A stretch of 20,528 nt of DNA from a virus. Where the stretch lies: positions 1 to 20,528 of IMG/VR virus record IMGVR_UViG_3300046167_000028; one strand, written 5' to 3'. A model generated the notes under the pieces. It had not been told where the DNA came from. It worked only from the letters and a program-made list of their open reading frames with translations, and searched no databases. Positions 7,695-20,528 of this stretch are shown here, piece by piece. The position numbers and the translations under genes were made by a program. Position 1 is the first letter of the stretch. Every line of letters starts with the position of its first letter.

Positions 7695-9305
7695 TTATGG
7701 GGCTTCGGCCCCTTCTTTATTAGTTTCAGCCAACATTTGTGCTAGCATAACCTTATCAGCACGTAGGGTTGCCATGGTATCTGCAGTTACGTTAGTACCT
7801 TGTATCATACGGTCAGTGGCTTTAATTAAGTCTCTTATAATAGCCTCTCGCCTTCTTTTACGACCTAAACGAGCTATACCGACTAATCCGGTGCCTGCTC
7901 CAATAGCCGCCGCAACTGCAGGCATGCCCCCTAAGGCAGCAGAACCAGCAGCAGCAGTAGCACCTAGAGCCAATGGCGTAGTAGGAAAACGAAGACCAGA
8001 AAAGTCTTCGATACCTTTCACCGTTCGTCCCAACATGCTCTGGTTTATGGCTTTACCTGCTTTAACATCTAATAGGTTCTTAGCCCTAAATAACATAGAC
8101 ATACCGTTAATTAAACGATAGGCTTCGTCATCAGGCATTAACTTAAGGAATGCTTGGTTCAGCTCGTCTCTTACGTACTTACCTGCTACTTCTTTTGCGC
8201 TTGCCAAGTCAGGATTCTCAAGACCTGCTGAAGGTTTTTTGCGGAAGATCTGCTTGTCCAACTGTCGGCGTACCTCAAGAATATCTCTGGCAGTAATCTT
8301 ACCGCCTTCGGAAGCTTTGTCGTTCAGTCTTTTGATAGCAGTGTCAATTAACAGGTCTACTTTTCTCTGTGCGTCAGGCATCAACTCAACGTAGTCATCA
8401 AGATCATGGAAGCCTGTCTTAAGTTCTTCCAAAGTACTAGACAGGTCAGCTACGTTGGTATTAGGGTTCTTAGACCGGTTGATGTATGATTGCAAGTCTG
8501 CTTCATGTTTTGCTAGTTGACCGTCTACAACCTTAGCGTTTACAGCAGGGTTTCGGTCACCTTTGTACTCAGGAAGTTTTGCCAAGTAGTCAATCACGTT
8601 GTCTTCGGAAGGTGAAGGCACGTACACGTTACGGTTCATCATTCCAGTAGGCTCCACAGTTCCCGGAGCTTTGACGTAGTCTTCAGGTAGCAAACTATCT
8701 GCTACTGCCTTACGTTCTTCCTCTAGGACAGCCCGTGTGGCTCTTTCTGAGGCCGTACGTACTGAAGCACTGGGTCTTGGGATAGACGGGAGTAGTGCCA
8801 TCTTAGGCCCAACACCAGCAATGTTAAGAAGAGCTTCAGCAGTAGTAGCCTCCTCTGGGTATGCCTGTGCTAACTCACCGACCTTTTCCATTCCACGCTG
8901 AAGCATAGAACCTTCGTACGCCTCTGAGACACCACGTTGAACAGCTTCAGGAGTGTACCTACGGTAGGCTTCTCCTGCTACTTCTCCTAACGTCTCTCCA
9001 GCAGCCCCAACACCAGCGGCAAGCGTAGTGCCTACCCTGAACTTACCGGGCAGTCTTTCAACATCCCCAGCAAGAGTACTTCTGTAACGCTCACGGGTCT
9101 CCGCAAATCGCTCTGGTGTTTCTGCAATCATTTCTCGCATACTCTCAGGTTCACGAGGGCGTGGAGGGGTTACAGTAAATGTTTCTCCCTCAACAATACC
9201 AATAACTTCTCCTGTCTCTTTGTTAGTGGCAGTCTTGAGCGGCAACCATTGTTCACCGTCCCAGTATATTTTCTGTCCTGTCTGTGGATTAGTCGCTGTC
9301 TTCAT
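7695..9305 (-). CDS. Probable internal virion / DNA-ejection protein (536 aa)
   Basis: Not assigned to a named family. The N-terminus carries two copies of a short unit, KTATNPQTGQ (2-11) and KTATNKETGE (24-33), around a YWDGEQWLPL stretch; I recall comparable N-termini in structural proteins of marine podoviruses. The middle is helical and charged. A Gly/Ala-rich hydrophobic segment lies at about 443-478 and is followed by RKRRR, which could insert into a membrane. It is the last gene of the virion block, after two other Ala/Gln-rich proteins, the place where short-tailed phages often keep ejection proteins. The start follows the upstream stop by 3 bases. Its last codons (GAEAP) form the hairpin that terminates the opposing operon. 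Confidence 0.7.
   Translation of the reverse strand: MKTATNPQTGQKIYWDGEQWLPLKTATNKETGEVIGIVEGETFTVTPPRPREPESMREMIAETPERFAETRERYRSTLAGDVERLPGKFRVGTTLAAGVGAAGETLGEVAGEAYRRYTPEAVQRGVSEAYEGSMLQRGMEKVGELAQAYPEEATTAEALLNIAGVGPKMALLPSIPRPSASVRTASERATRAVLEEERKAVADSLLPEDYVKAPGTVEPTGMMNRNVYVPSPSEDNVIDYLAKLPEYKGDRNPAVNAKVVDGQLAKHEADLQSYINRSKNPNTNVADLSSTLEELKTGFHDLDDYVELMPDAQRKVDLLIDTAIKRLNDKASEGGKITARDILEVRRQLDKQIFRKKPSAGLENPDLASAKEVAGKYVRDELNQAFLKLMPDDEAYRLINGMSMLFRAKNLLDVKAGKAINQSMLGRTVKGIEDFSGLRFPTTPLALGATAAAGSAALGGMPAVAAAIGAGTGLVGIARLGRKRRREAIIRDLIKATDRMIQGTNVTADTMATLRADKVMLAQMLAETNKEGAEAP
7699..7720 (+). terminator. Intrinsic terminator of the replication operon
   Basis: GGGGC (7699-7703), TTCG loop and GCCCC (7708-7712) form a 5-bp GC stem with a stable C(UUCG)G tetraloop, followed by TTCTTTAT. 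It begins 5 bases after the reductase stop. The 3' side on the plus strand is U-rich. The opposite side is not, so it is best read as a plus-strand terminator. It lies inside the last codons of the convergent minus-strand gene. Confidence 0.8.
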
Positions 9306-9308
9306 GTC

Positions 9309-10565
9309 TTAGTCCAATTCAAAACCTTCGGGAAGTTCTGCTTCTGGTGCTTCTGGCTCCTCTGGCATGGTTATGCTTGGGAAGCTAGTCATATTTTGTT
9401 CGCCTACACGTTTTGCAGTAGCAGTTCTAACCTTGTTAAAGTTATTCACAGTCTCAACCATAGAACGTCTGCGGATCTTCAACAAGTTAAACAGGGCTTC
9501 CTGCTGTGTGGTAATGTCAGCAGCAGCAATTAACTTAGCGTACTCTCTATCCGCATCTGACAAGCCCGTGCCTGAACCAAAGTCTTTAATCTGGTCAGCA
9601 ACAATCTTACCTGCTTCAGACACAAACTCCTGAGCATTTGTAACATTAGGGTCATAAGGCAAACCAATAAGCTCACCAAAGCGTCTAAGGTTTAACTCTG
9701 TCTCAGCCAAAAGGCCCGTAGGCATACCGCCTTCTAAACGTGCAGTCTGTCTGTCGATCAACTCAATCATGTCACGAGCATCTTGAGCCTTGGTGTTAAA
9801 CTCAACAAAACTCTTGACATTGGCTTCTGCCATTGCTCTTGCACCTACTTCTTGACCTTTGTCAACAACTTCTTGAACCTGTGGAGCCTTACGAACCAAC
9901 CCTAGCTCACTGGCCTTGACATATGTGTTAGTCTGGTCATTGTAGACTAAACCAAAGTCGTTGACGTTGACGGCCTGAATTTTACCCTCTGAGTCCTGCC
10001 AAGCCTCTAGCTTACCAGTCCGTCCCTTCAACAGGTCGTCTGCTTCTTCAGCCGAAAGAGTACCCATAGCAGTAATCTGAGGAGCAGTAAACCCAGCCAT
10101 TCTTAATCTTGCTTTGATAACTTGAGGATTGTCTAAAGGTAGTTGCTCAATCTGAAACTCTCGTACGTCCTTGCTGATAGCACGTAGTTCGTCCATGTCC
10201 GTAGTAGACCGTGCAGTCGCTGCTTGGTCCGTAAGGCCTGCTGCTTCTGCTGCTACTGCTACTTGCTCTTGAAAAGCGCTTAGTTGGGTTTGTGCTGCGG
10301 CCTGCGCTTGTAGTTTACGTGCCGCTTCTTCGTACTTTACAGCATTAGGAATGTCACCCTGCTGTCGGTAAAACTGAGCTAACTGAAGCAACCCTTCGGG
10401 CGAGCTAGTGTCAATTTGAGACAGTTGTTGTTTTTCTTGTTGCTGCTGTTGCTGCAAAGCCCTCATCTGAGGAGCTTGACCAATACCACGCGCAGCAGTA
10501 AACAAACCCTCTTGATAAGAAGGTTGTAGCATGCTCTGTAAAAATGCTTGTGAAAACTTAGCCAT
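9309..10565 (-). CDS. Probable internal virion protein (418 aa)
   Basis: A helical, Gln/Ala-rich protein. It has a short N-terminal segment ending in ARGIGQAP (to residue 32), a glutamine run (38-43), long charged helices, and near the C-terminus DFGSGTGLSDADREYAKLI (about 328-346), a block I associate with internal or ejection proteins of podoviruses. It ends in a Pro/Glu-rich acidic tail (PEEPEAPEAELPEGFELD). No enzymatic motif is visible. It lies between two proteins of similar bias, and all three are spaced by 2-3 bases or overlap, so they are probably made and packaged together. The structural role is inferred. Confidence 0.7.
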   Translation of the reverse strand: MAKFSQAFLQSMLQPSYQEGLFTAARGIGQAPQMRALQQQQQQEKQQLSQIDTSSPEGLLQLAQFYRQQGDIPNAVKYEEAARKLQAQAAAQTQLSAFQEQVAVAAEAAGLTDQAATARSTTDMDELRAISKDVREFQIEQLPLDNPQVIKARLRMAGFTAPQITAMGTLSAEEADDLLKGRTGKLEAWQDSEGKIQAVNVNDFGLVYNDQTNTYVKASELGLVRKAPQVQEVVDKGQEVGARAMAEANVKSFVEFNTKAQDARDMIELIDRQTARLEGGMPTGLLAETELNLRRFGELIGLPYDPNVTNAQEFVSEAGKIVADQIKDFGSGTGLSDADREYAKLIAAADITTQQEALFNLLKIRRRSMVETVNNFNKVRTATAKRVGEQNMTSFPSITMPEEPEAPEAELPEGFELD

Positions 10566-10567
10566 GA

Positions 10568-11650
10568 TTAACCCCCGAATAGACCGCTAAACAAGCCACC
10601 AAGAGCGCCGCCGATTGATTCGACACCACTTCCAATACCTGTAAGAACATCACCAACATCACCAAAGCCGCCGGGACTAAGAACAGTGCCAGACTTAGTA
10701 ACCTGCGGTGTTAACAAACCAGCAAGTACGTTAGACCCTATACCGCCTAGAAGGTTAGCTCGTGCTTGCTCTGCCAACAATTTAGACTCCAGACCAGACA
10801 TTGCAGTTTCACCAAAGAGTCCTGTACCGTACAACTGAGCCTGTTGCTGTAGCTCTGCCATGCGCTGTGCTGGCTGTGTGGCTGCCAACAACTGTGCCTG
10901 CGGTATATAACCAGCACCAAGGAACTGTTGTCCTAGTCCTGCTTGTTGCATTTGCTCTGCCTGAGCCTGCTGCATAGCGCCTAGCATAGATCGTGTACGT
11001 GCTTCTTCTTGAGCAGTCGCCATTGCTAGTTGCTCAGGAGTAGCACCACCGTATGCTGCTGAGGACGTACCTAACCGGCCCTGTGCAGCTAGACGTTCTT
11101 CTAACGCAAGACGTTGACGCTCCTCTTCAGGACGCTGCGCTGCTCGCATACGCTCAAAGATAGCTTGCTCACGATCTACAGTAGGTTGTACTGCCTGACC
11201 AAAGAACTGACCTGCACCGCCTAGTAGCTGTTGTTGCAATGCTTGTTCTTCAGGAGCTAAACCCATTGTTGTTTCAACAGCGCCTGTTGGTGTAACACGA
11301 GTACCTAGTTGACCCCCTGTAGCAGTAGTAACAGTAAACGGTCTAAACTGTGACTCTGCTTGACCACGTTCAGCTAACGCTAAAGCCTCACGTTGAGCCT
11401 CACGACCTACATCACTAAGACGGTTGTAGGCTTCGCCTGTCAGTAACGTACCAGCAATGCCCGGCAGAGCAGGAGAGATGGCTGAACCTATATCTTTAAT
11501 TCCACCAAAAAGATCGCTAAAGAAACCTCCACCGGCAGTGGCTGTTGAAGTATCTACACCTAACCCTTGCAATGTTGAACCAATTGTTGCAACATCCTGC
11601 ATAGGATTAAATGTGCCGTAGTTAGTAATTGATGGATCCATAAGAGCCAT
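10568..11650 (-). CDS. Probable virion / DNA-transfer protein with Gly-Phe ends (360 aa)
   Basis: A Gln/Ala/Gly-rich protein. Both termini carry a similar glycine-phenylalanine unit, GGFFSDLFGG (41-50) and GGLFSGLFGG (351-360), flanking a central helical region (EERQRLALEERLAAQGRLG, then many QQA segments). This composition is common in DNA-transfer or tail-associated proteins of short-tailed marine phages, but I cannot name the family. The start is fixed by a TAATG overlap with the upstream 77-residue gene. An internal ATG three codons later is possible. Membrane activity of the ends is only a guess. Confidence 0.7.
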   Translation of the reverse strand: MALMDPSITNYGTFNPMQDVATIGSTLQGLGVDTSTATAGGGFFSDLFGGIKDIGSAISPALPGIAGTLLTGEAYNRLSDVGREAQREALALAERGQAESQFRPFTVTTATGGQLGTRVTPTGAVETTMGLAPEEQALQQQLLGGAGQFFGQAVQPTVDREQAIFERMRAAQRPEEERQRLALEERLAAQGRLGTSSAAYGGATPEQLAMATAQEEARTRSMLGAMQQAQAEQMQQAGLGQQFLGAGYIPQAQLLAATQPAQRMAELQQQAQLYGTGLFGETAMSGLESKLLAEQARANLLGGIGSNVLAGLLTPQVTKSGTVLSPGGFGDVGDVLTGIGSGVESIGGALGGLFSGLFGG

Positions 11651-11883
11651 TAGTACGTACCTCCGTCAATTGTTCCTGTAGACAACGTACCTGTAAAAGT
11701 CAATGCAGGAATTGTCACTGTGCCTGTAAACGTAGGGGAAGCAATGTCCGCCTTCGTAGCGATAGCTGTAGATATGGCGTCAAACTCTGTTTCAAACTCA
11801 GCGCCCTTAATGATTTTACCGCTGTCTCCGGAAGGTAGACTGTCTTTAGCGGCAAAGTCAGTGGTCTTTGTATAGTTACTCAT
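11650..11883 (-). CDS. Small fibre-head-like protein (77 aa)
   Basis: The sequence looks like the virion-anchoring start of a tail fibre: FETEFDAISTAIATKADIASP (about 29-49) followed by PTFTGTVTIPALTFTG-type short repeats. In many marine phages such a segment leads into a long fibre, but here the protein stops after TIDGGTY. It overlaps the gp10-like gene (ATGA) and the next gene (TAATG), so it is a regular member of the operon and not a broken remnant by position. It may be an adaptor or cap at the tail tip, or a shortened fibre. Gene call secure; role inferred. Confidence 0.75.
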   Translation of the reverse strand: MSNYTKTTDFAAKDSLPSGDSGKIIKGAEFETEFDAISTAIATKADIASPTFTGTVTIPALTFTGTLSTGTIDGGTY

Positions 11884-13406
11884 AGTACTTTACCCATTAG
11901 TGCTAATACGTTAATCTCTTGGAGAGACAAACCTGAACCGTCTATGTCTGCTTCCAACCCAATTGTTATAACTCCACCGCCTCCGGTAGTGTTTATGCCA
12001 CGGCGTGACGTAAGATCACCACCTGTAAATTCTGCTGTACTGTTGTACTCACTCTCATTAAAGTAGCCTGTAACTTGATTACCTACAGTAAACTCTGCCG
12101 TTTGAAAGAACGTACCAAAATCGTAAGCCCACTTAAGAAACATAATAGCACTGTTAGCACCAACAATAGTAGGACGTAGCTTCTTAAGTATCTTTAGTCT
12201 TGATGGGTCGCCAAAGGTTAGACCGGGACTGTAGTACTTGAAACGATATTTACTACCGTTGTCTCTGTAGCCGCTGTACTCACCTATACCTTCACCGTTA
12301 CCAATCAACAATGTGCCGTCATCTTTCCTACCATAAGCAGTAAAGCCTGTACCGGGCCAACGTGTTACACGGTATGCACCGTTTTCTAGTGTTCCTCGAA
12401 CGTCGAAGCAAAAGGTCGTGTCTTGAGCAGTGAAAGTTAACAAGTAAAAACCTTCTTCTGGGCTGTACACAGAGCGATAAAACTCAGTCTCGTTCTGCAG
12501 CAGACCAATAATGTCTTTAGAAATAGTGCTTGACAAACTTGTAATAGGCATTGACTTTTCTTGTATAGTCCTACCAAAGCTTTTGAGTCCAGTGTGTGAT
12601 AAGAACAACACGTCTGTACCAGTGTACTGCACTGTGTCACGAGCAACACAACCTACGCCTGCTACGGTGTCTGCAAGTGACATTGTTGCTGGAGCTTCAG
12701 CGCCTTGGTACACAACAATGCTGTGCTTACCAAAGATAATCAACAGTCCGTTATGTGCAGCCAGCGCAACAATCTCGTCATACCCGTCAGGCCACACCTT
12801 AGACAAATTAATAGAGCCGCTAGTACCACCAGACCAGTCATGTCCAATTAACAAGTCAGACCAATAAACAGTAGACTTGTCGTTGTTTACGTCTGCTGTC
12901 CAGAGGCGTCCATAAGCCGCTAACACCTCGTTACCGTACATAGCACTAGTAACACCCGCTGCGCCAGAAACACTGCTCAGGGTCACTACAGAGCCTCCTA
13001 CAGCGTCATAGACTAACGGCTCATTACTGCGCTGAAAAAAGTAAATCTTATCGTTGAAGTTTACCATCTTCCAGTTGTCTTGAGTAATCGTAACTGATAC
13101 AGGTGTTTCATCAACAAGTGTTGTAGTACCGCTAAGTATTTTGTTGTTACCTACAGAAAATACTTTGGTGTTGCCAGCGTTGTCTTCAAACTCTTTAATT
13201 GCTCTGATCTTTGCAGAGCCTAGTTCAGTCTTGTCTGTTGTGATAACACTGTAACCCTTACGTGACGCAATACGACCACGCTTGTCAATCACTGCGTTGT
13301 CAGCAATGTCAGCAAACGAAGGGTCTTGTGCCAAAGGAGAATCTTCTGTATTGATTCCTTTGAAGGCTGGTGCAACAAGATTAATACTTTGTAATTGTTG
13401 AGCCAT
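11880..13406 (-). CDS. Tail hub / DNA-stabilisation protein (P22 gp10-like)
   Basis: A 508-residue protein with the N-terminal pattern typical of this group: APAFKGINTEDSPLAQDPSF, then ADNAVIDKRGRIASRKGY. A beta-rich body follows with repeated short strands (VFSVGNNKILSG, WKMVNFNDKIYFFQRSN) that suggest a propeller-like fold. P22 gp10 (472 residues) closes the portal channel after packaging and forms the tail hub. It lies directly downstream of the gp4-like gene, the same order as in P22-like tail machines. Its ribosome site (GAGGT) overlaps the upstream stop codon. Confidence 0.75.
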   Translation of the reverse strand: MAQQLQSINLVAPAFKGINTEDSPLAQDPSFADIADNAVIDKRGRIASRKGYSVITTDKTELGSAKIRAIKEFEDNAGNTKVFSVGNNKILSGTTTLVDETPVSVTITQDNWKMVNFNDKIYFFQRSNEPLVYDAVGGSVVTLSSVSGAAGVTSAMYGNEVLAAYGRLWTADVNNDKSTVYWSDLLIGHDWSGGTSGSINLSKVWPDGYDEIVALAAHNGLLIIFGKHSIVVYQGAEAPATMSLADTVAGVGCVARDTVQYTGTDVLFLSHTGLKSFGRTIQEKSMPITSLSSTISKDIIGLLQNETEFYRSVYSPEEGFYLLTFTAQDTTFCFDVRGTLENGAYRVTRWPGTGFTAYGRKDDGTLLIGNGEGIGEYSGYRDNGSKYRFKYYSPGLTFGDPSRLKILKKLRPTIVGANSAIMFLKWAYDFGTFFQTAEFTVGNQVTGYFNESEYNSTAEFTGGDLTSRRGINTTGGGGVITIGLEADIDGSGLSLQEINVLALMGKVL

Positions 13407-13413
13407 AGCTACC

Positions 13414-14061
13414 TCACGGCGTGTAGAAGACTACTTCTTCTGGATGCTTCTGAGCGTCTAGTGCAATAGCATCAGACAAATACTGGTTAGCAATGTTGAA
13501 GTACTCAGGAGCAGACGTGCCACCTGTCTCACCACGCTCACGAGCCAACAAAGCAATAGCTAAGTGGATGATAGGCATAGTAGGTACTAACGTCTCATCA
13601 CTGTCAGCAGATAAATCTACATCACGTTTGACACAGTTAAACCTAATTGTGTAAGCTTTATCAGGCGTTGGGTAAATATCAATTTGCGTATCGCCGTTAT
13701 TGTCAACACCATTATACGTGTAGTACGTTGGAGCGCCTGTACGTGGTTGTGAAATTAAATAAGCCTCATCAAAAAACGTAGCTGTCTTATACTCCATAAA
13801 TAAATTAGCAGTATCGTTAAGTACATTAAGTGCTTTGATTCTGTTTTGGCTACCTGTAAGTACATAGTTAAAAATATCTTGAGTAGTAGTAATCGTCAAG
13901 GTAGTCCGAAGTGCTGACCAATCCCAAGAATCTTCTACGATGCGCTTTGCATCATTAACAAAGTCACCTACCATCTTTGCATAGGTACTGCCTTGTACAG
14001 ACGACACTTCTTCTTCACGAAGACGGCGCAGTACGTTGTTAACTAAGTTAAGGTATGTCAT
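13414..14061 (-). CDS. Head-tail adaptor / tail tubular protein (P22 gp4 / T7 gp11-like)
   Basis: A 215-residue protein that starts with a helix MTYLNLVNNVLRRLREEEV, then VGDFVNDAKRIVEDSWDWSALR and later a strand-rich region with DNNGDTQIDIYPTPDKAYTIRF. These blocks are characteristic of adaptor proteins that dock on the portal ring in short-tailed phages. The gp10-like gene follows after 7 bases. The start codon overlaps the stop of the collagen-like gene (ATGA). No peptidoglycan hydrolase motif, as found in P22 gp4, is evident. Confidence 0.78.
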   Translation of the reverse strand: MTYLNLVNNVLRRLREEEVSSVQGSTYAKMVGDFVNDAKRIVEDSWDWSALRTTLTITTTQDIFNYVLTGSQNRIKALNVLNDTANLFMEYKTATFFDEAYLISQPRTGAPTYYTYNGVDNNGDTQIDIYPTPDKAYTIRFNCVKRDVDLSADSDETLVPTMPIIHLAIALLARERGETGGTSAPEYFNIANQYLSDAIALDAQKHPEEVVFYTP

Positions 14062-17000
14062 ACGAGCATTCCTGTTTGTCTACCTAAAAATTTATTAAGT
14101 TCGCCTAAAGCGTCTGTTTGTTTTTGTGGAGCAAGTGCTATAGGTGTTAGCATTTGAAACGGGCTAAGACCTTTAAGGAACGGGTCAAACGGTATAGGAT
14201 CTGGCCTAGCAAGTTCAGCAGCAAGCTGTTGTTGTTGCTGTCCTAGCCCTAACAAACCCACACCTAAACCAGCTCCTAATCCTGCAACACCTTGACCAAG
14301 ACCAGCAAGACCTTCACCAAGACCTGCTACTTGTTCACCTAAACCAGAAACTTGTTGTTGTACTACGTCAAACTGCTCACCAAACTGCGACTGTAAACCG
14401 CCCTCAACTTCAGCAAGTTGTTGTAATACACCTGCTTCCACGCCTGTAATTTGTGACAACAAACTAGCTTCAGTATCTGATAAGCTTGTAGCAAATCCTT
14501 GCTCTGCTTCTTCAAGACGTTCTGTTAAGGTCTCTTCTGTTTGCTGTGAAGTTTCCTCAATAAGCTCTCGCATTGCTGCTTCTTGAGTTAACATACCCTC
14601 TTGAAGAGCGTTTAAGTTAACACCAACACGTAAACTCAACTCATCAATACTAAGACCAAGCTGGTCATAACGCTGTCTACTTGCTTCGTCCAGCTCTTCA
14701 ATGCGACCACCAGCACGTATAACATCCTCAGCAACACGAGCCACATCTGTTGTTAACGTACCTAACCTACCGCCTAGTTCTGCTCGTTCTTCAGTAGCTA
14801 TGTCAAGTTGTTCACCTGTTTGTTGCTCATAAGCATCAATACGTTCCGTTAAACGCTCGTTCATGCCTTCTATTTGAGCAGCAGTTTCACCACGAACGCC
14901 TGTAAGCTCTTCGGTTATTTGATCGCTTAGTCCACGACTACTAGCAATAGCAGCAGCCTCAACGTTTGATATACCTTCTAAAAACTCTGACTGTATATTT
15001 AAAAGCTGTGCAAGTTGTTGTGCAGAATTAGCATTAATTTGTTCTTCAAGACCAGTAATTCTTTCGCCTGTGCGTTGTTCTGAGGCTGCAATATCCGTCC
15101 TTAAAGTACCAGTAATATCGTCAAAACGTCTGCCTTGACTTTCTAAGAGTCTTGTAAATTCTTCGGCGTCTCCTGCGGCTTCTGCTAATAATCTTTCTTC
15201 AACACCTGAAAGCTCTGATAGCATACGAATTTGAGTTTCAGATAAAGCTGTTGCTGATCCTTGTCGATATTCTTCAAGACTATTAATAAGATTTTGTTCA
15301 ATACGTATACGATCTTGTGCAGCTTGTTGTTGACCCGCAGTAAGTTCTTGATACTGTTGCTCTTGTTGTTGTGCTATTTCTTGTCTTTCTGTTGCAGCTT
15401 GTTGTATATCTTCTTGTAAACCGCTTACGTTTTCAGCAAGACCATTAACAACTTCAGTAACACCACCAAGGTCGTTAATAATTTGTTGTTGGTTTTCATC
15501 AAGATTTTCTATCTGACCACCTTGACGGACAAACTCACGTACTGCTTCACTTTGTTGTTCTGTAAGGACACCTAAAGAAGTTTGTATTCCTTCTATTTCT
15601 GTATTTTGATCTTCAAGAGATGCTAATATAGGTTCAATATTTGAACTAAGCATTCCTTCAAGAACTGCAGGATCAACGTCTCTACCATCTCTACCGTCTA
15701 CACCGTCAACGCCATCTCTACCGTCTACGCCATCACGACCATCTACTCCGTCAACGCCATCTCGACCGTCAGCACCATCTACCCCATCAATGCCATTAAT
15801 GCCGTCTATACCGTCTGTACCATCTCTGCCATCAACACCGTCTATCCCGTCTATTCCGTCTCTGCCGTCTATACCATCAACGCCGTCACGACCGGGATCG
15901 CCTTGCGGCCCTTCAACAGGCTGAGGAAAGTATTCAGAAAACATCTCTTCAGTAATAGTAGATTCAGCCTCAAGACCTGTTTCCTCTGCTGTTGTGTCAG
16001 CAAAAATATCTTCTGTAGGTTCTTCTGTAGGTTCTTCTGTTTGTTCAGTTTGCTGTTGTTGTTCTTCTTCACCAACAGATCCAAAACCCGGTAAATTAAA
16101 AGTAGCCTGTCCTTCTGTTGCTGTTGGGTAAGGAGATGAAGAAGACTCCATTGATTCAAGAACATTAACAACACCTTGAGCAGCGCCTGAAGACTCAAAA
16201 GCATCAGCAACAATGTTTATAAAATCAGAAGTAGTTCTATCTATTTCTGCAACTACAGCGTTTCCTGCTTCTGCTGCTTGAGTAATAAAATCACTGTAAA
16301 AAACTTCTGTTCCATCACTAAGCGTAACAAAAGTATTGTTACCGTAAGTATTAATTGGTAGTTCTGTACCGTCAGCTAACTGTACTGTATCTTGAGTAAG
16401 ATCGTTTAAAGACTCTGTAAGAGTCTCTAAAGCACCAGACTCTTGTAAGTAGTTAATAGCAGAAGTAGACAAACCTGCACTTAGCGCAGACTGAAGAGCT
16501 TGACTTAGGTCTACTTCTCCAGTAGCTAAAAGCTGCGTAGCTGAGTTTGTAATACCTGCAGAAGCCCCTGCTGCAAGAGCAGTGTTACCGCCAAACACAG
16601 GACCTAAAGCTTGCGTTAATGCACCACCAACATAAAACGATACGGCTGCTAAAAGACCTGCTTTTACAAAATCACCAGCACCGGGATGCTCTATGTCTAC
16701 AGTTTTTACATAAGAAGAACCATTCCACTGAAACTGATCGCCAGTCTCGCTGTAAACTGTAGTTTGTACACCGTACTTTTCAAGTAACGCTTGGTTAACT
16801 TCAGAGTTAAGCCAATCTTCATAACCTGATCTTTGTAGATTAGTTTCAGCTTCAGCGGCTAAATAAGCGCCACCAGTGCCTCCTGCGCCACTTATACCAA
16901 GCTCACCACCTCCTCCAATAGTCATTCCAATGTCTATTGCAGGAATTTCTACTACAGTACCGTCTTCTAGAGTTATTGTTTCTGAAGGAGTACTTATGTT

Positions 17001-17522
17001 TCCGGCGCTACCCCAATCACCAAGCGTTAACTCACCTGACTGAATTAACTCCTCACGCTCAGTCATATAAGCAAGGTAGTTATCAAATGAGCCAAATACT
17101 TCTGGTAGTCTGTTAGTGCGCTTGGGATCGTTAAAGTAATCTCGCAGGTAACTTTCAGTAACTTGTTGTGGCTCTACTGATTGACCATATAATTCACCGG
17201 GCCTAGCGTCACCACGCTCAGAGCCTTCAATAAACGTAAAGGTCATTTCTGCTGGTTCTGGTGCAGTCTCTTCTGATTGCTCTTCAGCAATCGTAATGCC
17301 TTGATTGAGAGGATCGTTTGGATCAAAACCCATATCTACCGTAGCGTTTCCTGCGTCATCATCTTCAAGGCGTGGAAGATTAATAATCTCAGGAAGTTGG
17401 CTAGCTGGGGCCTGTGGTCGTCCAATTGCAGGAGCTAAAATAGGTTCCTGTTTAATTGGCGCCTGCTTTGTGGGAGCGCCTTTAACATAACCCGTCATCA
17501 TACCTTTTGTAGGTCTTAACAT
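14058..17522 (-). CDS. Giant collagen-like and coiled-coil structural protein (1154 aa)
   Basis: Probably a long virion fibre or appendage; I do not recognise the full-length protein. Layout: Pro/Glu-rich N-terminus (1-110); mixed domain (110-280); Gly/Ala-rich hydrophobic segment (about 284-355); QTEQTEEPTEEPTED acidic spacer (490-505); 26 uninterrupted Gly-X-Y triplets (538-615), nearly all GVD, GID or GRD; long helical coiled coil rich in Q, E and L (640-1060); Gly-Leu-rich segment (1058-1094, GLGEQVAGLGEGLAGLGQG); poly-Q (1095-1099); and a short conserved-looking C-terminus ending LGRQTGMLV. The GXY block should form a collagen-type triple helix, so the protein is likely a trimer. It lies between small membrane proteins and the tail adaptor. 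Start ATG is 2 bases after the upstream stop. Confidence 0.8.
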   Translation of the reverse strand: MLRPTKGMMTGYVKGAPTKQAPIKQEPILAPAIGRPQAPASQLPEIINLPRLEDDDAGNATVDMGFDPNDPLNQGITIAEEQSEETAPEPAEMTFTFIEGSERGDARPGELYGQSVEPQQVTESYLRDYFNDPKRTNRLPEVFGSFDNYLAYMTEREELIQSGELTLGDWGSAGNISTPSETITLEDGTVVEIPAIDIGMTIGGGGELGISGAGGTGGAYLAAEAETNLQRSGYEDWLNSEVNQALLEKYGVQTTVYSETGDQFQWNGSSYVKTVDIEHPGAGDFVKAGLLAAVSFYVGGALTQALGPVFGGNTALAAGASAGITNSATQLLATGEVDLSQALQSALSAGLSTSAINYLQESGALETLTESLNDLTQDTVQLADGTELPINTYGNNTFVTLSDGTEVFYSDFITQAAEAGNAVVAEIDRTTSDFINIVADAFESSGAAQGVVNVLESMESSSSPYPTATEGQATFNLPGFGSVGEEEQQQQTEQTEEPTEEPTEDIFADTTAEETGLEAESTITEEMFSEYFPQPVEGPQGDPGRDGVDGIDGRDGIDGIDGVDGRDGTDGIDGINGIDGVDGADGRDGVDGVDGRDGVDGRDGVDGVDGRDGRDVDPAVLEGMLSSNIEPILASLEDQNTEIEGIQTSLGVLTEQQSEAVREFVRQGGQIENLDENQQQIINDLGGVTEVVNGLAENVSGLQEDIQQAATERQEIAQQQEQQYQELTAGQQQAAQDRIRIEQNLINSLEEYRQGSATALSETQIRMLSELSGVEERLLAEAAGDAEEFTRLLESQGRRFDDITGTLRTDIAASEQRTGERITGLEEQINANSAQQLAQLLNIQSEFLEGISNVEAAAIASSRGLSDQITEELTGVRGETAAQIEGMNERLTERIDAYEQQTGEQLDIATEERAELGGRLGTLTTDVARVAEDVIRAGGRIEELDEASRQRYDQLGLSIDELSLRVGVNLNALQEGMLTQEAAMRELIEETSQQTEETLTERLEEAEQGFATSLSDTEASLLSQITGVEAGVLQQLAEVEGGLQSQFGEQFDVVQQQVSGLGEQVAGLGEGLAGLGQGVAGLGAGLGVGLLGLGQQQQQLAAELARPDPIPFDPFLKGLSPFQMLTPIALAPQKQTDALGELNKFLGRQTGMLV
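15678..15911 (-). repeat. Collagen Gly-X-Asp repeat tract (26 triplets)
   Basis: 234 bases encode GPQ GDP GRD and then 23 more triplets, all but one (GIN) with Asp in the third place. On the plus strand this appears as imperfect 9-base units of the type (a/g)cc(a/g)tc. Such tracts expand and contract easily by slippage or recombination. The encoded tract is read in phase with the surrounding protein. Confidence 0.9.
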
Positions 17523-17524
17523 AA

Positions 17525-17872
17525 TTACTTCTTCCAGTTAGCCAGACCACGTAGGCCAAACGATGCTGCAACAGCAGCGCCTAGAAAACCTTTGTACCAC
17601 TCAGGCATAGAATCTAACGCAGCAAACCCTTGCATAACTACAGGAACCATAGACGGGAAAGAACGCAAGTACACAAGGAACTGAAAACAAAATAGGTAAA
17701 CCATTCGTCTTTCCATGAGTTAGCTGCGTTGTTTGCATGGATGTTTTCCCAGTTACCGTCCTGCTGTATAGCTACCATCTTACGCTCATGGACAGCCTTC
17801 TTCTCTTCTGACTTACGCTGAAAGGTGTCCACCAACAAGATTAACAATAGGGCCTATCAAAGCCTGTATCAT
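17525..17872 (-). pseudogene. Broken small membrane protein (holin-like), three apparent one-base excesses
   Basis: Reading from ATG 17872 gives MIQALIGPIVNLVGGHLS and then a stop. Sensible protein resumes in other frames: KSEEKKAVHERKMVAIQQ and NNAANSWKDEWFTYFV, then VPCVLAFFP, then SMVPVVMQGF through LRGLANWKK. Dropping one base from each of three homopolymers (17821-17823, 17684-17687, and 17655-17660) restores one 114-residue frame ending at 17525. The restored protein has a short N-terminal helix, a charged helix and a membrane hairpin. I recall intact proteins of this shape in marine phages; the 3TM gene-transfer-agent holin type is the nearest description. It could be a true pseudogene or a local sequencing error. 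The start overlaps the upstream restored gene (ATGA). Confidence 0.7.
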
Positions 17873-18432: not shown

Positions 18433-18749
18433 TACCAAGGCATACCATCAGCAGACACAGGGTTCTTCTGTGCTTCGATGTTAGCTGTCAGTGCCGCCTC
18501 AGTAGCGTCTTGGTCTACTGACTCGTGTACCCATGCCAGTACAGCAGACTCAGTAAGGTCATCGTAAGCTACAAAGCCGTCAGCATCAGCGTCAGGTGTA
18601 AAGCCTACAGTTCCGTATGAAGATGCAGTGTAAGTCACAGCGTCATCGCCAGTACCAACAGTTTCAGATTCAGTAACACGCCAGTGTGCAACGGTTACAC
18701 CGCCGTCTGCCACGTTACGCTCAAGGTTTGCGATAGTCCATGTAGCCAT
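18432..18749 (-). CDS. Small conserved marine-phage protein downstream of tail fibre
   Basis: A 105-residue protein beginning MATWTIANLERNVADGGVTV, with a beta-rich first half (AHWRVTESETVG, VTYTASSYGTVGF) and an Asp-rich helical second half ending in GMPW. I recall close relatives next to tail-fibre or structural genes in many marine phages, catalogued as a domain of unknown function. Both ends overlap neighbours by TAATG (18749 and 18432). It may be a fibre-assembly or virion accessory protein; that is inference from position. Confidence 0.75.
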   Translation of the reverse strand: MATWTIANLERNVADGGVTVAHWRVTESETVGTGDDAVTYTASSYGTVGFTPDADADGFVAYDDLTESAVLAWVHESVDQDATEAALTANIEAQKNPVSADGMPW

Positions 18750-20528
18750 TAGGCTTCTCCTTCAAGTTGTGCAACTCTTGCACGTAGTGATTGAATTTCT
18801 TTTAACATCATAGGCACTAGCTTTGAGTAGTCTACGCCCATCATTTTTTCAGGGTCTTCTGGTTGACTTACTGCGTCAGGAACAACAGTTAGCAACTCTT
18901 GAGCTATTAAGCCATAAGATTGATGGTATCCATTTTCTACCCAATCAAACTGTCGTACTTGGATAGCGTCAATGTCGTCAGAAGCAGATGAGGCGGCTAC
19001 AATGTTTTCTTTGAGACGTTGATCTGAAGTGACGTTATATCTAACTTGATTACCTGTTCTGTTGTAATCAATATTTCCTCTTTCAGTTGCTGAGCTTTCG
19101 GTAAAAAACTTTACGAATAAATTGTTTCCAGTTGTGGCTGTTTGCCATACTGCTAAGGGAAGACTTGCGGCCGCTCCGCTGTTTTTTTGTATTGCAACTG
19201 TAGTATCTGACGAAGAACTTACAAAACAATGGTCGTTGCCTGCTAAGGCAGAAGTAGTACCAACCAGCAAGTTGCCGCTAGAGTCAATACGCATGGCTTC
19301 TGTACCAGCTGTGGAAAAGCCCAGTGCATTTGTTGTGGCCCTAAACATTCCGGAATCAGAGTCGGCATAAAAAGACACAGACGGTTGTGATGCACTTCCT
19401 GCACCTGCTCTTAACTGTGTATCTACAAAAGCACTGCCTGACAGGTAAAGGTCTTTGAACTTTACAACATCTCTTCCTAAGTCAATGGCCGAGCCTCTTG
19501 CCGCGTTTGTAGAAGCATCGTGCGGAACCAACGCATCTCTTAAAGAGTCAAAGAATAAAGATGTGTCGCCCGAGCCAACATATATTTTTGAGGATAAAGT
19601 ACCAATACTACCGACTGACGTGCCTGACTTGAAAAAGCTAATCAATGACCCGTCTGTACCGTTTCTATTTACACCGACAGGATTGGTGTTTGTGTCACTA
19701 ACCTGAATAGCACCTGCGGCTAATGCTTCAAAGCCATCTGTTGTGTAGCTGGAAGTTGTCTTACCAACCAGCAAGTTGCCGCTAGAGTCGATGCGCATGC
19801 GTTCTGTTGAGTTAGTAAAAAAACCAAAGCCATGGTTAGATAAAGTTCCAACAACGCCGATACTATCTTGGCCTCTTGCTTGCAATAATGTGGTAACTGT
19901 TCCGTCTTTTATTTGTGCGTAAGTTCCTTGTCCGCCTTGAACTACTAAAGCAGAGTCTGGACTGCTAGTGCCGATACCCAACGACTCCGCAGAAGCATCC
20001 CAGAACAACTTCGCAGTCGTGCCAGTGTCTTCGTAGAAACTAATGTCGTTATTAGAATCAATTTTTAAAGCAGGGGTTGCCGCATTATTAACGTGAAACC
20101 TAAAGTCATTTCTTGCTCGAATTGTTGACGTTCCAGTGGTGTCCACTAATGCAATTTGCGCTTCTGTATCTGTAGACTGGAAAGTAGCAACTAAGTTTTC
20201 TGCCCCAGAGTTAACAGTCAAACCATCAGCAGTCACTGTGCCAGTTACGTCGATGCCTGTTGGGCCTAGTGTTGCTAGAGTAGCTCCATTGTCTACAAAT
20301 AATATTGGGCCTATGTCGGCATCAATACCACCGATGTACAGATTATTTGCGGCATTTACACCAAACGCCCTAGTAGAACTTCCGCTAGAGTTTTTTACAC
20401 TTAAATATTCAGCATTATTTTCTAGCGTTAAACCGTTAGAAACAACTGTGCCCGTTACGTCGATGCCTGTGGAGGTTGTGGCTAGTTTGGTTGACCCTGA
20501 GTGGTTTAGTGTTACTGCCCCAGAAGCA
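18749..20528 (-). CDS. Tail fibre with C-terminal S74 self-cleaving chaperone; N-terminus outside window
   Basis: The frame is open to the window edge, so 592 C-terminal residues are visible; the GTG at 20236 is internal. The body is made of short beta repeats: two TGIDVTGTV modules 70 residues apart, then two MRIDSSGNLLVG units, typical of trimeric fibre shafts. The last ~92 residues match the intramolecular chaperone (peptidase S74) domain: SDQRLKENI, with a Ser and a Lys five residues later (the catalytic pair), then IQVRQFDWVENG, YGLIAQEL and a closing coiled coil (LKEIQSLRARVAQLEGEA). Autocleavage before that Ser (codon 19025-19027) would free the mature fibre. It is the likely receptor-binding protein. 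The next gene overlaps its stop. Confidence 0.92.
   Translation of the reverse strand, partial: ASGAVTLNHSGSTKLATTSTGIDVTGTVVSNGLTLENNAEYLSVKNSSGSSTRAFGVNAANNLYIGGIDADIGPILFVDNGATLATLGPTGIDVTGTVTADGLTVNSGAENLVATFQSTDTEAQIALVDTTGTSTIRARNDFRFHVNNAATPALKIDSNNDISFYEDTGTTAKLFWDASAESLGIGTSSPDSALVVQGGQGTYAQIKDGTVTTLLQARGQDSIGVVGTLSNHGFGFFTNSTERMRIDSSGNLLVGKTTSSYTTDGFEALAAGAIQVSDTNTNPVGVNRNGTDGSLISFFKSGTSVGSIGTLSSKIYVGSGDTSLFFDSLRDALVPHDASTNAARGSAIDLGRDVVKFKDLYLSGSAFVDTQLRAGAGSASQPSVSFYADSDSGMFRATTNALGFSTAGTEAMRIDSSGNLLVGTTSALAGNDHCFVSSSSDTTVAIQKNSGAAASLPLAVWQTATTGNNLFVKFFTESSATERGNIDYNRTGNQVRYNVTSDQRLKENIVAASSASDDIDAIQVRQFDWVENGYHQSYGLIAQELLTVVPDAVSQPEDPEKMMGVDYSKLVPMMLKEIQSLRARVAQLEGEA
19259..19789 (-). 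repeat. Repeat encoding MRIDSSGNLLVG (27-bp exact copies)
   Basis: 27 identical bases occur at 19259-19285 and 19763-19789, 504 bases (168 codons) apart, and both copies are followed by closely similar sequence toward higher coordinates. Both encode the DSSGNLLVG part of the shaft unit that precedes the chaperone domain in many fibres. Confidence 0.85.
20244..20470 (-). repeat. Repeat of the GIDVTG fibre module (17-bp exact copies, 210 bp apart)
   Basis: An identical 17-base stretch occurs at 20244-20260 and 20454-20470 (gttacgtcgatgcctgt on the plus strand). The 210-base spacing is exactly 70 codons, so the two lie in the same frame and encode the same TGIDVT stretch. More copies may lie beyond the window edge. 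Confidence 0.85.

Follow-up and report, generated by a model that had tools for sequence, protein, structure and literature searches.

A predicted phage structural protein of 1154 amino acids, encoded on the minus strand (14058..17522) of the window (the whole stretch of DNA analyzed, a viral sequence record 20,528 bases long, with a G+C content of 45.4%), contains a tract of 26 unbroken Gly-X-Y triplets (15678..15911, minus strand; residues 538-615), 23 of which carry Asp in the Y position. This tract probably forms a homotrimeric collagen triple helix that would serve as a stiff stalk midway in an elongated, tail-associated fiber protein and would be resized and swapped as a unit. The observations behind this reading are the sequence itself, its match to the collagen family, the position of the gene, the variation in length and the presence or absence of the tract among relatives, the mosaic junctions around it, and the predicted helical region on its flank. 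The feature is a real, if modest, variation on the collagen-like stalks known from phage tails: it is of a known kind, and its charge layout is a variant for which we found no description in the open-licence PubMed Central literature.

A collagen tract built of Gly-X-Asp triplets

Translated from the minus strand, the tract opens with GPQ GDP and continues with 24 triplets, 23 of the form Gly-X-Asp, the only prolines being residues 2 and 6 of the tract. The Y positions hold Asp in 23 cases and Gln, Pro and Asn once each, and the X positions hold Arg (8), Val (8), Ile (6), and single Pro, Asp, Thr and Ala residues; with 24 Asp and 8 Arg residues, each chain carries a net charge of -16. A recount bore out the initial annotation with respect to the 26 unbroken triplets, the 23 Asp residues, the two prolines at the start, and the occupancy of about one third of the X positions by Arg (8 of 26). 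The interval given there for the tract, 15678-15911, is also correct; on the plus strand, this interval encodes an unrelated frame rich in Val, Ser, Thr and Ile.

The longest run of triplets starting with Gly, 26, compares with 5 across 2000 shuffles of the 1154-residue protein. The Pfam family PF01391 (Collagen) scores 48.2 bits with the whole protein and 69 bits with the tract alone, over the curated cut-off of 27.2. In both the unbroken series of Gly-X-Y triplets and the family score, the tract resembles PF01391 collagens, from which it differs in having two prolines only and Asp in 88% of the Y positions. When the PDB was searched by sequence with the tract, the matches were ordinary collagens and an entry for a spindle/axial fibril, the best being a 780-residue collagen-like chain named spindlefibril/axialfibril (8zxl, 9ius).

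Recent DNA slippage alone is insufficient to account for the tract, because synonymous Gly and Asp codons vary in their third positions while the encoded residues stay constant: Asp is written with 13 GAC and 11 GAT codons, Gly with all four of its codons, and the rows of tandem repeats that cover the tract show 69-87% matches.

The host protein and its gene neighborhood

The protein consists of an N-half that is poorly modeled, the collagen tract, and a C-half that is mostly helical by prediction. In the AlphaFold2 model of the N-half (mean pLDDT 47.3), the best-predicted stretch, residues 91-170 (17013..17252, minus strand), is mainly helical, with block pLDDT values of 70-94; a second, weaker one spans residues ~231-270 (pLDDT 72-85), and helices are predicted at residues 282-361, inside a Gly/Ala-rich region. 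A Foldseek search of viral folds with this model returned nothing at E<=0.001. Beyond the tract, residues 618-1072 (14307..15671, minus strand) are predicted to form mostly long, amphipathic, coiled-coil-like helices; the model of the C-half (539 residues), whose mean pLDDT is a low 48.5, places helices, with breaks, over its residues 3-457. When the hydrophobic periodicity across residues 616-1075 was scanned between 85 and 120 degrees, the maximum was at 99.5 degrees, as expected of an amphipathic coiled coil, and none of 300 shuffles reached as high a peak. An adjacent trimerization domain is usual in collagen triple-helix proteins, without being strictly defining. Close to the C-terminus, there are Gly-rich heptad repeats, GLGEGLA/GLGQGVA (14284..14324, minus strand; a tandem repeat with a 21-nt period), followed by a C-terminal tail ending in QTGMLV (14061..14210, minus strand), which, in the family alignment, is kept in most relatives, the exceptions being L021, L022 and L024.

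Fifteen PHROG families match the protein, chiefly through the tract repeat: 10 are tail families, one is a virion structural family, and four are of unknown function. The two best matches are family 1806, "collagen like minor tail" (E 6.3e-14), which covers residues 533-611 only, and family 8745, "tail fiber protein" (E 6.2e-16), which covers residues 372-613 against a profile of 1803 positions. Outside the tract, Pfam yielded no family at the curated cut-off. Searches with tblastn against 50,697 named phage records, in which the BLAST low-complexity filter masks the collagen repeat, gave no match with the whole protein (E<=1e-5), with a 240-residue piece of the N-half (E<=1) or with the C-half (E<=0.1).

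The gene of the tract protein sits among tail structural genes. Its stop overlaps the start of a gene for a head-tail adaptor-like protein (13414..14061, minus strand; PF24175, SU10 adaptor), which comes immediately after it in 27 of the 28 family loci; the remaining one, L023, ends inside the gene. The adaptor gene next door, the PF01391 match and the 10 tail families among the 15 PHROG matches all agree with the initial assignment of the collagen to a phage structural protein. Further downstream is a nozzle-like structural protein (11880..13406, minus strand), whose name derives from its place in the gene order and from weak PHROG matches that include virion structural and head closure families, the best one being annotated as amidase; it shares 25.8% identity over 55% with a structural protein of Pelagibacter phage HTVC104P. 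Three ORFs downstream of the nozzle (10568-11650, 9309-10565 and 7695-9305), which have no PHROG or Pfam match, possibly encode internal proteins. Upstream of the tract protein, a separate tail fiber with a C-terminal S74 endosialidase chaperone (18749..20527, minus strand; PF13884 and PHROG tail-fiber families) is cut by the end of the window. In two longer related records, the gene order is terminase, portal, scaffold-like, capsid-like, tail fiber, small ORFs with a putative lysis gene, and then the collagen-family protein, adaptor, nozzle and further ORFs; most of these names are a reading of position and sequence, and that of the adaptor comes from Pfam. A marine origin of the record is likely because its DNA polymerase is nearest to those of Pelagibacter phages HTVC103P, HTVC104P and HTVC115P (49-51% identity).

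A 77-residue ORF (11650-11883, minus strand) is similar to the N-terminal portion of a 1017-residue tail fiber ORF in the related record G001 (76% identity, partial), as if it were a stand-alone copy of a fiber attachment domain; it adjoins the nozzle-like gene in L001 and L002 as well as in the window. G001 (37,662 bases; L239/L240) carries the same terminase and neighboring ORFs at both ends, which suggests an overlapping or circular assembly. At 17525-17847 (minus strand), a small gene looks split in the window by a frameshift or a sequencing error, because two overlapping ORFs match separate halves of PHROG 2524 (profile positions 63-125 and 16-74); several relatives have, in its place, a different ORF of 132 residues, of which no counterpart was found in the window.

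Variation and probable exchange of the tract among relatives

A scan of IMG/VR identified 29 loci, of which 28 were retained as relatives; L029 was excluded because it matches only via a collagen repeat of other composition, with Asp in Y in 3 of 32 triplets. The tract is present in 16 of the 28 relatives, with 12, 18, 20, 22, 23, 24, 26 or 28 triplets, and cleanly absent in 8 (L003 and L007-L013), where the N-half passes directly into the helical part and the residues at the junction are identical save one substitution; the other 4 (L004, L014, L023 and L026) do not span the site. These counts are not counts of independent events: the 16 tract loci include near-copies (L005/L006, L017/L018 and L024/L025), and the eight tract-free loci resemble a single lineage in this place. 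The initial annotation had proposed counting triplets in related genomes as a check for length variation, and such variation exists, from 0 to 28. By eye, the lengths of the C-parts follow no clear compensating trend with tract length.

Across the 13 distinct tracts of the family (that of the window included), Asp occupies 219 of the 255 Y positions and Arg 75 of the 255 X positions, and Lys never occupies X; in L021 and L022, only 15 of 22 and 14 of 23 triplets, respectively, carry Asp in Y. All 13 keep the Gly register, by which, however, they had been found. With a rise of ~0.288 nm per residue, the value expected for the EPcl collagen domains (PMC3368898), the 78 residues of the tract would form a rod of about 22 nm, and the tracts of the relatives, rods of about 10 to 24 nm.

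A linker of ~36 residues and the tract that follows it (15678..16021, minus strand; ORF nucleotides ~1502-1845, delineated by blastn) together look like an exchangeable stalk cassette, because their DNA recurs in proteins whose N- or C-halves are dissimilar. In L005 and L016, blastn of the ORF gave 91-93% DNA identity from nucleotide 1509, which lies ~100 nt ahead of the tract, across the tract and onward, and upstream of this point no DNA match is listed, save 69 nt at the start of L005; over residues 51-450, the amino acid identity of these two proteins to that of the window is 12-29% in aligned blocks, and a distant kinship of the N-halves is possible. In L015, L024 and L027, a block from nucleotide 1502 or 1510 to 1766 is shared at 84-85% DNA identity, along with shorter pieces of the N-half (72-90%). 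Past nucleotide 1766, the repeat aside, L015 and L027 have little DNA match until the extreme C-terminus, and L024 has one matching piece of 67 nt. The mosaic pattern fits the separation of domains by phage collagen-like repeats (PMC5601072) and the suggestion that such repeats are recombination hotspots (PMC7242381).

In the arrangement that we propose, the N-half would attach the protein to the virion close to the adaptor, the rod of collagen would come next, and the long trimeric-type coiled coil and the C-terminal tail would extend the fiber outward. The flanking helical region, rather than the sequence of the tract itself, probably keeps the triple helix in register. The tract and the short upstream linker would be exchanged, lengthened, shortened or lost as one unit, a process that would vary the length of the fiber and connect different N- and C-halves, with the rod as a spacer between them.

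Comparison with other collagens

Asp in Y at the level of the window is unusual. In viral tracts of at least 20 triplets sampled regardless of Asp (116 among the matches listed), Asp occupies a mean of 5.3% of the Y positions, and the highest value among these listed tracts is 45%, with none reaching 50%, compared with 88% in the window. The sample comprised the longest tract from each of 119 listed loci, minus 3 in which Gly was present in X or Y in more than 30% of the triplets; one locus from the same pattern scan, L147, was left out. When the 119 listed loci were rechecked for tracts in every frame, none of the 188 obtained was at 50% either; none of these loci had tracts on both strands, and the tract was in the longest ORF in 53 of them. 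The charge layout of the tract is the reverse of that of published viral collagens, for which Table 4 of Ghosh et al. 2012 (PMC3368898) gives acidic residues in 35.3% of X and 7.8% of Y positions, and basic residues in 6.0% of X and 38.1% of Y positions.

In absolute numbers, Gly-X-Asp runs are not rare. Ten such triplets in a row occur in at least 119 IMG/VR stretches, as against 95 in total for Gly-Asp-X, and twelve in a row in at least 117 stretches in GTDB genomes, some of which are simple repeats (e.g. Gly-Thr-Asp) and might not be collagens. We found no description of Gly-X-Asp collagens as a class in the open-licence PubMed Central literature; PMC12217137, found there, concerns a vaccine peptide and is not a collagen study.

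Parallels in architecture are known from phage tails. EPclA and EPclB, side-tail collagens of Escherichia coli O157:H7 prophages, likewise combine collagen and alpha-helical coiled-coil domains, and a likely role as a phage side-tail protein has been described for trimeric EPclA (PMC3368898). Their charge layout is opposite to that of the tract: X contains 48.1% Pro and 35.6% acidic residues, and Y contains 31.0% Arg/Lys and 0.1% acidic residues (PMC3368898, Table 4), whereas the tract has Val, Arg and Ile in X and Asp in 88% of Y, so it lacks the combination of Pro or acid in X with Lys or Arg in Y. The order of domains also differs, the collagen being placed ahead of the helix (N-half, collagen, helix) rather than as in the EPclA-type PfN-PCoil-Col-PfC. 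For flanking domains of the PfN and PfC type, the comparison covered Pfam profiles, none of which scored at its cut-off outside the tract. In Streptococcus thermophilus phage adhesins, collagen segments lie between distinct domains of host-binding proteins (PMC9437275, PMC5601072), and the collagen-like linkers of streptococcal phage adhesion devices vary in length (PMC9437275), although the phage type and the flanking domains are different. Among bacterial collagens, the Scl2/SclB adhesin family (NCBIfam NF038329) matches the window protein via the tract at 58.7 bits, far under the equivalog cut-off of 325, and Scl2 is, according to the family name, LPXTG-anchored.

Stability of the tract and alternative explanations

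In model collagens, charged residues are generally unfavorable except for Arg in Y, and Lys-Gly-Glu and Lys-Gly-Asp pairs, with the base in Y and the acid in the next X, are stabilizing (PMC7824840). Twenty-three Asp residues in Y are therefore unexpected for a stable rod, and the tract, with the acid in Y and the base in X, is opposite to these pairs. One route to stability is plausible by analogy with Scl2.28, in which pH 2.2 lowers the melting temperature from 35.6 to 24.2 degrees C, a drop attributed to the loss of Asp/Glu charge and hydration networks (PMC8968730). Most likely, the chains are assembled by the flanking helical region, after which hydration, counter-ions and the Gly register would be enough to maintain the helix.

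The initial annotation had instead proposed pairing of Arg in X with Asp in Y or stabilization by a metal, such as calcium, in seawater. That Asp in Y would coordinate cations or pair with Arg of a neighboring chain is a rather improbable explanation, even though the prevalence of both residues in the window and across the 13 family tracts, where no Lys is found in X, is in its favor, and some counter-ion compensation is likely because of the net charge of -16 per chain. The reported stabilizing pair is reversed, and no Lys or Arg is present in X in 42 of the 117 viral loci listed with at least ten Gly-X-Asp triplets in a row (a set that omits some loci, such as L025, and includes at least five contigs of the family, L001, L002, L005, L021 and L024) and in 70 of the 113 listed genomic loci in which the run is in an open frame (out of 117); Lys or Arg fills at least 25% of X in 42 of the 117 and 34 of the 113, respectively. 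A general requirement for Arg-Asp pairing is thus rejected, and Arg in X could still help the stability of the tract in the window. A seawater-specific feature is rejected as well, given that the titles of the listed genome records with at least 12 Gly-X-Asp triplets name, among others, bacteria from rumen and horse faeces, Halorubrum and Streptomyces, and the idea of calcium and seawater has no support beyond plausibility. Nor did Pfam report a calcium-binding family for the tract: PF01391 was the only family returned even at E<=10, a search in which HMMER filters drop many weak matches. A better-supported calcium beta-roll, which the initial annotation had named as an outcome that would refute it, was not found in this Pfam search, on the basis of which we rejected this fold; RTX-type beta-rolls consist of nonapeptide GGxGxDxUx repeats. 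More broadly, the repeat might adopt some other Gly-X-Asp structure, namely an RTX-type roll, a polyglycine-II bundle or a disordered acidic linker. The paucity of Pro and the generally unfavorable effect of charged residues such as Asp on model triple helices would fit this, and absence from 8 of the 24 relatives that span the site implies that the tract can be dispensed with, as would be expected of a flexible linker. Such a structure nevertheless appears improbable to us: the Gly register has no break in any of the 26 triplets and is maintained in the other family tracts, there are no turns to split the tract into the strands of a bundle, and a disordered linker has no need of Gly in every third position.

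The location of the protein in the virion can also be read differently, with the protein being internal or ejected and the collagen an extended spacer inside the particle or in an ejection conduit. The helices predicted in the Gly/Ala-rich N-half, the genes for the adaptor and nozzle alongside, and the presence of a separate S74 tail fiber in the same record are compatible with this possibility, which we regard as unlikely. The 11 matched PHROG families with an assigned function comprise 10 tail families and one virion structural family; the three ORFs downstream of the nozzle provide other candidates for internal proteins; and a rigid 22-nm rod joined to a long coiled coil would be better suited to an external fiber.

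A broader and more tentative proposition is that Gly-X-Asp collagens constitute a separate class of triple helices, widespread in phages and bacteria, with acid in Y, hydrophobic residues or Arg in X and almost no proline, stabilized outside the Lys(Y)-Asp(X) code. We consider this conceivable but doubtful; the stabilizing factors would be, for instance, hydration or cation shells around the Asp spiral, or folding wholly imposed by flanking trimer domains.

Implications

Tracts that reverse the reported rule of Lys in Y and acid in X occur in many virus and microbe sequences, and a recombinant Gly-X-Asp tract would be a direct test of whether the stabilizing charge rules are complete. Such a tract could yield a highly acidic collagen with almost no proline. 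In terms of phage biology, the tract of the window has the appearance of a stalk cassette, exchanged and altered in length from one fiber to another.
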